Of a stretch of DNA of 64,000 nucleotides, positions 7,118-21,090 are shown piece after piece; positions within the stretch are counted from its first letter, which is position 1; each line of letters opens with the position of its first letter. Origin of the DNA: Gammaproteobacteria bacterium 42_54_T18 (GTDB taxonomy: Bacteria; Pseudomonadota; Gammaproteobacteria; Pseudomonadales; Ketobacteraceae); NCBI GenBank assembly GCA_002163245.1, contig MAAL01000182.1, positions 1 through 64,000 on the forward strand. Direction: 5' to 3'. Under the pieces are notes generated by a model. It worked only from the letters and a program-made list of their open reading frames with translations, had not been told where the DNA came from and did no database searches. Both the position numbers and the translations under genes were made by a program.

Positions 7118-7426
7118 ATGTTAACAAGAACCTTACCTGAAATTGGCCAATGGTATGAAAACAAAGATACCGGTGCTCTGTTCGAAGTTGTTGCTATTGA
7201 TGACCAGGGTTTTGTAGCAACACAATACTTTGATGGTGAAGTTGAAGAACTAGACCCCGAAACCTTTATCAAAATGCCTTTACGCATGACAGAGCAGCCG
7301 GAAGATTGGGGGGGGCCATTTGAAGTTGATACTGAAGATCGTTTTGAAAGTGATTTTTTTGCAATTCCCAACGAAAACAAACAAGAGTCTGGGCTCGAAC
7401 CAGATTACATGAGAATTGTTGAATAA
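7118..7426 (+). CDS. Conserved small acidic protein of unknown function
   Basis: This 102-aa acidic protein begins with an ATG preceded by GGAG at good spacing. It contains PEIGQWYENKDTGALFEVV and a TEQPEDWGGPFE segment, followed by an acidic tail. It has no signal peptide, membrane segment or cysteine. It resembles small DUF6763-type proteins of gammaproteobacteria; that match is from memory and tentative. It lies just upstream of lexA on the same strand, but lexA has its own SOS promoter, so joint transcription is uncertain. An 8-G run at 7308-7315 encodes the W-G-G of the DWGGP motif. Confidence 0.7.
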   Translation: MLTRTLPEIGQWYENKDTGALFEVVAIDDQGFVATQYFDGEVEELDPETFIKMPLRMTEQPEDWGGPFEVDTEDRFESDFFAIPNENKQESGLEPDYMRIVE

Positions 7427-19161: not shown

Positions 19162-19770
19162 ATGAACAAACGAGACGACAAACAACAGCTAATACTCGAA
19201 GCTGGATTGGAGGAAATCCTTATCCATGGGTATAACGGCACCAGCGTGAAAGACATCACCGTTGCTGCCGGTATCCCTAAAGGCTCATTCTACAACTACT
19301 TTGAGAGTAAAGAGCATTTTGGCCTTGAAGCCTTGCAATACGTATCAAGCCAAGGGTGTCAAGCCGCTCGTCAAACCCTTTCCAACTCAAAGCTACGCCC
19401 TCTAGAGCGGCTGGTGAAATATTTTAATGATGATGCTCTCGAACTCGAAGCATCAAATTTTGAAAAAGGCTGCCTGCTAGGCAACCTCGGCCAAGAATTA
19501 TCTGATGCAAACCCTGTTTTTCAAGTGAGAGTTGAAAGCCTTATGGCAAAGATGACGTCCGAACTGGAATCATGCTTACTTGACGCTATAGAACAAGGGG
19601 ATCTTGACGCAGATATTTGCCCAAAAATGATGGCTGAGTTCCTATTCAACGCATGGGAAGGCACAATTACCCGAATGAAAACGTCAAAGTGCAACCGCCC
19701 ATTTACCGTATTCCAAAATGGGCTACGTGTTCTCTTTCAACAATCAAGTACCGTTTCCTGCTCCGATTAA
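19162..19770 (+). CDS. TetR/AcrR-family repressor
   Basis: This is a 202-aa regulator with an N-terminal helix-turn-helix (AAGIPKGSFYNYFESKEHFG, about residues 34-53) and a C-terminal ligand domain of the TetR_C type. Its operator-like sequence lies immediately before its own start and twice before the next gene, so it most likely represses itself and the lpxR-like gene. The inducer is unknown. Cysteines in the C-terminal domain (for example KGCLLGNLG) could allow electrophile sensing as in NemR-like repressors, which is speculative. Confidence 0.9.
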   Translation: MNKRDDKQQLILEAGLEEILIHGYNGTSVKDITVAAGIPKGSFYNYFESKEHFGLEALQYVSSQGCQAARQTLSNSKLRPLERLVKYFNDDALELEASNFEKGCLLGNLGQELSDANPVFQVRVESLMAKMTSELESCLLDAIEQGDLDADICPKMMAEFLFNAWEGTITRMKTSKCNRPFTVFQNGLRVLFQQSSTVSCSD

Positions 19771-19838: not shown

Positions 19839-19857
19839 AAGACGACCGGTCACTTTA
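19839..19857 (+). promoter_or_regulatory. TetR operator copy 2, before the lpxR-like gene
   Basis: AAGACGACCGGTCACTTTA is a near-identical copy of the regulator's own operator and contains the perfect palindrome GACCGGTC. It starts 35 bp upstream of copy 3. Confidence 0.75.
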
Positions 19858-19873
19858 TATGACAACAAAATAT

Positions 19874-19892
19874 AAGACGACCGGTCATATTA
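19874..19892 (+). promoter_or_regulatory. TetR operator copy 3, before the lpxR-like gene
   Basis: AAGACGACCGGTCATATTA matches copy 1 except for one base and ends 10 bp before the ATG at 19903. Two operators suggest tighter repression of the target than of the regulator. Confidence 0.75.
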
Positions 19893-19902
19893 AGAATTTA
19901 TT

Positions 19903-21090
19903 ATGAATACCAAAAAAGTTCACATAGCAACGATCCTACTTGCCCTGGCATCAGGTATCTCAACGGCACAAGCATCCGTCGCACCTTTTCAGCCCTATCA
20001 AGCGCAATTATTTGCAACTAACACTGCAATGCCGAATGCACTTAACACATCCCTGACTAGATACCCTTCTTTTAGAAATCAAGAAAAGTACAATTCAGGT
20101 TTTGCTTTTTATGTAGATAACGACTTGCTTGTACCAGGCAGTGACGACCGAGATTACACAGGGGGACTTGCTCTGACATTATCTGGAAAACGTGCCAAAG
20201 AATATTGGTTCTCACTTGATACTGCGTTATCTGCCACAGAGTCCTTGCTAGGTCTTGATACCTTTAGCAGTGGCTCAGGGCAACGTCAATTACATAGCGT
20301 TGAATTTGGAGCAACCGCCTTTACTCCGGGCGATGTAGAGAATAGTGATGCCAACCAAAACGACCGCCCTTATGCAAGTTTGTTTTATTTATCGAACACT
20401 CGCCACCACATCAATCACAACACAAAAACTGCAGTTACCACCACATTAACGATCGGCGCTATTGGCTTACCCATCGCTGGAGACATCTATAACGGCATTC
20501 ACAGCACAATAGGCAGTGACAAGGGTGAGGGCTGGTCTCATCAAATATCGAGCGGTGGCGAGCTTACCGCCCGCTTTGGCAGCTCTCGCCAACAAGTGAT
20601 AGCGTCAAACTACTCAGCTGACAGCAGCTATGAAATCAAAACCTTAGCTCAAGGAAGCCTTGGATATCTAACAGAGCTATCCTTTGGTGTAACCGGGCGC
20701 TGGGGACGGATCAACACCCCTTGGTGGACATTCAACCCAGCAAACGCAAAGTACACAGAGAAGTCATCCGCGGTAACGCCATTCAAACGAACAAATGACC
20801 TATTTGTGTTTGGTGGTTTTAGCAGTCATGTACGAGGTTATAATGCTTTTTTGCAAGGTCAATGGAAAAACAGCGACGTATCATACGATCGTAATGAACT
20901 AAATACGATCATTCACGAAGCATGGGCAGGGGTCACTGTAGGGATTGATGCTAAAACAAATATTTCCTACTTTATTCGTGGCCAAACCAGTGAAATAAAG
21001 CAAGGGGATGGCGATAGAAACCCTGTCTGGGGGGGGGGTTGTATTCAATTATTCCATTTAAAACTAACGTCTATAAAACCAGAGCCTTGA
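19903..21090 (+). CDS. LpxR-family lipid A 3'-O-deacylase with a frameshifted C-terminus
   Basis: This is an outer-membrane beta-barrel of the LpxR (DUF2219) family, which removes the 3'-acyloxyacyl chain of lipid A. The signal peptide ends near residue 24 (AQAS). Family landmarks are VDNDLL, DRDYTGGLAL, NDRPYASLFY and the catalytic-His region GIHSTIGSDKGEGWSHQ. The last barrel strand is disrupted: a 10-G run at 21029-21038 puts the end into a foreign frame (WGGGCIQLFH, stop at 21090). With 9 G it would read WGGVVFNYSI and stop at 21061, a proper barrel end. This is either slipped-strand phase variation or a sequence error. Two TetR operators precede it. Confidence 0.85.
   Translation: MNTKKVHIATILLALASGISTAQASVAPFQPYQAQLFATNTAMPNALNTSLTRYPSFRNQEKYNSGFAFYVDNDLLVPGSDDRDYTGGLALTLSGKRAKEYWFSLDTALSATESLLGLDTFSSGSGQRQLHSVEFGATAFTPGDVENSDANQNDRPYASLFYLSNTRHHINHNTKTAVTTTLTIGAIGLPIAGDIYNGIHSTIGSDKGEGWSHQISSGGELTARFGSSRQQVIASNYSADSSYEIKTLAQGSLGYLTELSFGVTGRWGRINTPWWTFNPANAKYTEKSSAVTPFKRTNDLFVFGGFSSHVRGYNAFLQGQWKNSDVSYDRNELNTIIHEAWAGVTVGIDAKTNISYFIRGQTSEIKQGDGDRNPVWGGGCIQLFHLKLTSIKPEP
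21029..21038 (+). repeat. Poly-G tract (10 G) near the end of the lpxR-like gene
   Basis: Ten consecutive G lie in the last coding strand. Loss of one G restores the expected C-terminus, so the tract could act as an on/off switch by slippage. Confidence 0.8.

Follow-up and report, generated by a model that had tools for sequence, protein, structure and literature searches.

The window, by which we mean the whole 64,000-nucleotide stretch of DNA that was analysed, carries on its forward strand a gene for an LpxR-family lipid A 3'-O-deacylase-like outer-membrane barrel (19903..21090; 395 aa in the annotated frame; Pfam PF09982). Directly upstream, on the same strand, lies a gene for a TetR-family regulator (19162..19770; TetR_N and TetR_C_13 by Pfam). 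Two copies of the palindrome GACCGGTC, the first at 19844..19851 and the second at 19879..19886 (no strand assigned), form a pair of GACYGGTC sites and are candidate TetR operators. Such pairs, with 22-36 bases from start to start, stand before lpxR in 4/4 loci of the genus (the window, L046, L047 and L048), and inspection by eye of the latter three loci revealed the end of a similar ORF ahead of lpxR. The GACYGGTC sites may well be bound by the TetR protein, and repression by it would be the likelier everyday regulation of lpxR, being better conserved than the G run described below.

The match of the ORF to PF09982 scores 127.6 bits (cut-off 26; 6.6e-37; residues 55-370) and is the sole PF09982 match found in the genome, a 6.66 Mb draft of 199 contigs. 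A phmmer search with the window LpxR protein returned no solved structure at 0.001, and a profile built from eight relatives gave a weak match to Salmonella LpxR (3FID, E 0.0055). The AlphaFold model of an intact relative (L046; mean pLDDT 68.1) displays 12 strands, the last spanning residues 375-384, in agreement with the 12 strands of an LpxR barrel. The first-ranked fold match of this model is 3fid_A (E 6.0e-14, TM 0.62 by query length, 17% identity). The preliminary description had called the product an LpxR-type lipid A deacylase; the PF09982 match together with the fold match of the relative to 3fid_A confirm the ORF as an LpxR enzyme at the level of the family, with lipid A deacylation as its predicted activity.

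Residues N9, D10, T34, H122, E128 and K129 of Salmonella LpxR are discussed as catalytic in the accessible part of PMC6260217. According to the weak profile alignment (E 0.0055), T34, H122 and K129 correspond to T86, H200 and K207 of the window protein, and the position of E128 is occupied by Asp (D206); N9 and D10 would correspond to N73 and D74, a pairing made by position only. N73, D74, T86 and H200 are invariant among 11 aligned sequences, and all six residues (T86, H200, K207, D206, N73 and D74) are located upstream of the G run.

This run consists of 10 G by exact count in the sequence (21029..21038, + strand) and is the window's only run of at least 9 G. It falls on the conserved W-G-G motif and starts in the codon of W376, within the last strand (375-384 in the L046 model). 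The annotated frame ends in ...NPVWGGGCIQLFHLKLTSIKPEP*, the end of the annotated protein being WGGGCIQLFHLKLTSIKPEP*; translation places the tail CIQLFHLKLTSIKPEP* (21039..21090, + strand), which is modelled with weak confidence, outside the family frame. Read in the other frame after the run, the bases through 21061 give an ending like that of the relatives, and the stretch 21029-21061 is made up of the G run and the bases completing the family frame. Exact count and translation bear out the earlier claim that 10 G put the last barrel strand out of frame. Likewise, a 9-G reading ends in WGGVVFNYSI* as had been proposed, and the identical ending is found in the congeners G001 and G002. The AlphaFold model of the window protein itself shows a strand of low confidence at 375-383 followed by an unstructured tail, model confidence being 48 in block 381-390 and 29 in block 391-395. 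The run is long enough to slip and is placed so that its length alters the frame, as is expected of a contingency locus.

The G 8-mer has 4 matches in the window against a mean of 0.86 after shuffling. As many were obtained in 2 of 100 shuffles, and the lpxR run itself supplies three of the four in the window. A run of 8 G at 7308-7315 also falls on a W-G-G, in frame, within a 102-aa ORF (7118-7426, + strand). GGG accounts for 22.5% of the 902 Gly codons in the long ORFs of the window, and two consecutive GGG codons at a conserved W-G-G are therefore expected about 5% of the time. At that frequency, the slippery run could have arisen via synonymous drift alone.

We compared the site with its counterparts in other LpxR genes. 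A survey of 390 genomes of the order gave 45 LpxR matches; 31 loci were examined, and 30 endings could be read (all but L233). These endings were chosen by a W-small-small motif, so the presence of the motif among them is partly by construction: W-G-G stands in 29 of the 30, and L032 has W-G-S. The W and the first G are also invariant in the 11 aligned sequences, which were chosen without a motif condition. All 29/29 other LpxR genes read, those of three congeners included, have a longest G run of 4 here, versus 10 in the window; conservation of a long run, a further mark of a contingency locus, was seen in 0 of these 29 genes. The homologues of the three congeners share 89%, 86% and 68% identity with the window protein and end in WGGVVFNYSI* (G002 and G001) or WGGFVVNYSI* (G003). 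The fourth congener, G004, gave a distant match only (25%, E 2.6e-6).

For codons 1-375, comparison with two congeners yields dN/dS values of 0.069 and 0.081, and the two congeners compared with each other yield 0.079; these values point to strong purifying selection on the codons before the run. After the run, the unread family frame differs from L046 by two third-position changes, both synonymous. An old pseudogene was ruled out, as dN/dS is as low as between the two intact congeners and the ending is still family-like. The low dN/dS and the preserved family frame together indicate a break that arose very recently, can revert, or is only apparent.

Long G/C runs were counted throughout the genome. 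There are 59 runs of exactly 8, 44 of at least 9 and 16 of at least 10. Geometric extrapolation from the short runs of the window predicts ~63 runs of at least 8, ~14 of at least 9 and ~3.1 of at least 10 for the 6.66 Mb, whereas 103, 44 and 16 are observed; long G/C runs thus exceed the geometric expectation, about 5-fold at a length of at least 10. Among the 14 genomes counted in total, four congeners hold 17-60 G/C runs of at least 9, and nine other genomes of the family or order hold 0-16. A profile search detected mutS and mutL above cut-off in the genome of the window, which rules out missing mismatch repair as the cause of slippage; the same search did not find mutS in G001 (84% complete).

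We then asked how often runs break reading frames. Frames were scored on either side of each run by codon usage, and each apparent shift was checked by eye. The sample covered all 44 runs of at least 9 and 30 of the 59 runs of 8; runs of 6-7 and A/T runs came from the 74 run loci of this genome plus the window. Six coding runs of at least 9 G/C break a frame. Besides lpxR with its 10 G, they affect a short-chain dehydrogenase, a methyl-accepting chemotaxis protein, a thrombospondin-type-3-repeat lipoprotein-like protein (L023/L108), a GGDEF-EAL protein (L106) and a small ORF (L094); the other two loci kept as breaks are L010/L107 and L084. The automatic rule called lpxR one-sided because little of the gene remains after the run, and we accepted it as a break. 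The breaks in the dehydrogenase and in the GGDEF protein are firm, since in each a single Pfam domain is carried on in a different frame; the remaining breaks were called from frames and codon usage, and the small ORF (L094) has no Pfam match in either frame. Open frames run through 9 coding runs of at least 9 by the strict automatic rule (L003, L083, L088, L089, L090, L093, L102, L103 and L105), and through 16 once those accepted by hand are added (L002, L017, L080, L085, L091, L096 and L097). The other 22 of the 44 runs lie outside genes or at gene edges, or are unscorable.

No frame break was found at the scored G/C runs of 6-8 (0/36) or at A/T runs of at least 7 (0/64). Cases scored as in frame with a stop within 45 bases were dropped, namely L082 (1/10, runs of at least 9), L169, L004 and L099 (3/39, runs of 6-8) and L176 (1/65, A/T runs). 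Automatic shifts at L012, L158, L176 and L093 in this genome, and at L150 and L152 in G002, proved on reading to be gene boundaries; the A7 of L012 and the A8 of L158 were rejected on this ground, L158 being the least clear of the rejected shifts and one that could be argued. Compared with the runs of 6-8 (0/36), runs of at least 9 are more often broken by Fisher's test, with p = 0.0003 in the strict set (6/15) and 0.002 in the broad set (6/22). Leaving lpxR out of the broad set gives p = 0.005 (5/21), leaving out L094 as well gives 0.013, and counting in addition one control as broken gives 0.047. Among the congeners' scored coding runs of at least 9, 3 of 24 look broken (L122 in G003, L134 in G002 and L057 in G001), not clearly fewer than the automatic 5/14 in this genome (p = 0.12).

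Intact runs occur in genes for an SDR, an AFG1-type ATPase, LolB, a molybdopterin oxidoreductase and kinases, as found by a Pfam scan that covered 10 of the 17 genes whose frame stays open across a run, 2 of the 10 being without a match. On inspection, broken and intact runs alike are spread over mixed gene types. Together the results indicate that frame breaks track the length and base of the run; a link with surface function is not evident.

To see how lasting the runs are, 74 run loci of this genome were compared with 86 of the congeners, drawn from G001 (28/28 runs), G002 (31 loci with 33 of 60 runs) and G003 (27 loci with 30/30 runs). Only 2 of the 74 have a run at the matching place, L091/L118 in the LolB gene and L105/L213 in a Lit-domain gene. 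Among the 86 congener loci there is none matching the run of lpxR.

Several individual loci deserve description in their own right. In L106 (1442-1500; G000:C187), 9 G at the GGDEF motif split the domain of a GAF-PAS-GGDEF-EAL protein over two frames. In L108 (G000:C190:54000-63000), a run of 10 splits a large protein, rich in thrombospondin type 3 repeats, near its N-terminal part; the start of this protein appears lipoprotein-like by eye. In the congener G001, a run of 10 (L057:1500-1509; G001:C1) apparently breaks a small ORF, once more at a W-G-G motif. The 10 G of L012 (1455-1520; G000:C117) separate the stop of an ORF, recognised by eye as an ABC-type ATPase, from the gene that follows; they stand where its ribosome-binding site is to be expected, so that a change in length could alter translation. 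In L002 (1435-2082; G000:C6), 10 G stand in frame within a segment resembling a signal peptide at the beginning of a likely outer-membrane barrel, so called from a weak OMP_b-brl match below cut-off; the position of this run is more typical for phase variation than that of lpxR.

The genome also contains a repeated element that ends in CAATGCTGTTGC(A/G)TTAA and is present in 16 end copies (e.g. L253-L264, L019-L021, L092, L095 and L106). The short contig of L106 (G000:C187) itself ends in this CAATGCTGTTGC repeat, and wherever the distance was read the element lies within ~120 bases of a contig end. Of the 14 ends inspected, 9 have a poly-G or poly-C tract of at least 5 within 8 bases of the element, and 5 of the 44 genome runs of at least 9 adjoin it. 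By these features it looks like an insertion sequence with a preference for poly-G/poly-C targets.

We favour the explanation that the lpxR run is a slippage hotspot of a generic, length-dependent kind, which the assembly shows in an out-of-frame state, and give it about an even chance of being correct. Under this explanation, conserved Trp-Gly-Gly codons would drift to G-rich synonyms until a long G run arises by chance; the run would slip in replication, leaving an lpxR copy, or the consensus, outside the family frame. Most of the last beta-strand would then be replaced by an unrelated tail, with the catalytic residues kept and the C-terminal strand recognised by BAM altered. According to the accessible text of PMC10945584, BAM takes up barrels through a signal carried by their last strand, and there are also internal signals as well as barrels in which no C-terminal signal can be recognised. 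Given a signal in the last strand, poor assembly of the window LpxR is likely, and the protein would probably have lost its function. The spread of runs and their turnover are what neutral slippage would give, or a calling error limited to the longest G/C runs. As about six genes of mixed function are broken at runs of at least 9 G/C, the hotspot appears to be a generic mutational effect and not a dedicated switch. Several points count against it: mutS and mutL are present, AlphaFold still gives the window protein a last strand at 375-383, the excess of runs of at least 10 could hint that runs are kept, and chemotaxis receptors, GGDEF-EAL proteins, lipoproteins and LpxR are of kinds that are often phase-variable elsewhere.

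Slippage presumably happened in the organism rather than in sequencing, although an assembly with a miscounted run would be indistinguishable from a slippage break. A wrong consensus length in an organism that has the family-frame length would account for the purifying selection seen up to the run and for the family frame being intact beyond it; a length-calling problem would likewise break some six unrelated genes at long G/C runs, and the draft state of the genome (199 contigs) fits as well. General homopolymer errors were rejected, as no break at G/C runs of 6-8 or A/T runs of at least 7 survived inspection; errors would have to be confined to the longest G/C runs, and even there 9 to 16 coding runs are in frame. 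We regard an assembly or sequencing error as somewhat doubtful. A fixed frameshift that is tolerated, with slippage of RNA polymerase or the ribosome on the G run yielding some full-frame protein, appears very improbable. The frame beyond the run is still family-like and long homopolymers can be slippery in expression; against this, the relatives read have no comparable run and nothing else in the sequence suggests programming.

The preliminary description had seen a classic contingency-locus arrangement. In a selected locus of this kind, slipped-strand mispairing at the G run would toggle LpxR assembly so that the population always has both lipid A forms. Here a surface-modifying enzyme does carry a long G run at a frame-critical position, lpxR is kept by purifying selection, runs of at least 10 are in excess, and precedents exist in H. 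pylori pldA (PMC3490997) and neisserial EptA (PMC6111236), as far as the accessible parts of these papers describe them. However, the three congeners and all 29/29 other LpxR genes read lack the long run, having 4 G at most; the run lies at the extreme 3' end of lpxR; runs are also spread over housekeeping genes, with breaks in genes that have no evident surface role; mutS and mutL are present; and the TetR/operator arrangement of 4/4 genus loci may already provide regulation. A classic contingency locus is thus not supported, and we consider a selected switch at lpxR unlikely. A wider version is more doubtful still: the genus, made up of uncultured gammaproteobacteria with large genomes and with mismatch repair genes present, would keep its excess of G/C runs (44 of at least 9 here) as a genome-wide set of switches. 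Such a set might comprise lipid A deacylation, c-di-GMP turnover (through the run that breaks the GGDEF motif), a large repeat lipoprotein and chemotaxis, and the genes bearing the runs would change rapidly; we hold it to be improbable. The observation itself and the family of the protein are confirmed; the contingency reading is not favoured.

If switching were true, a lipid A 3'-deacylase would be phase-variable via its last strand. If it is not, the case warns against inferring a contingency locus from a single stretch of G in a draft-genome surface gene before the other runs of the genome and the relatives have been looked at. Searches of a library of open-access papers, judged from their listings and from the accessible parts of PMC3245313, PMC5013297 and PMC12342981, revealed no phase-variable LpxR.

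Salmonella LpxR (3FID, PF09982) resembles the window protein in the fold match of the relative and in the equivalents T86, H200 and K207, and differs in that the window protein has D206 in place of E128 and its last strand out of frame. Homopolymer indel hotspots in mutation accumulation lines of Vibrio are comparable in that the rate of single-base indels climbs with homopolymer length; in the accessible part of PMC5854121 this correlation comes from mutS-deficient lines, whereas the genome studied here has mutS and mutL. H. pylori pldA encodes an outer-membrane enzyme that acts on lipids, a phospholipase A, and a homopolymer run changes its frame. That run lies at residues 226-228 and, according to the accessible text of PMC3490997, was seen by its discoverers in every isolate that they sequenced, whereas the lpxR run is unshared and located at the last strand. 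A selected locus should keep its run, as pldA does, and the unshared run of lpxR therefore counts against a switch. Neisserial EptA (LptA) is a different enzyme from LpxR, and the available part of PMC6111236 reports for it a T run at the 5' end of the gene with a measured frequency. Like LpxR, it modifies lipid A, and it is truncated by one-base slippage at a homopolymer; this precedent makes the idea of phase-variable lipid A modification reasonable in kind.
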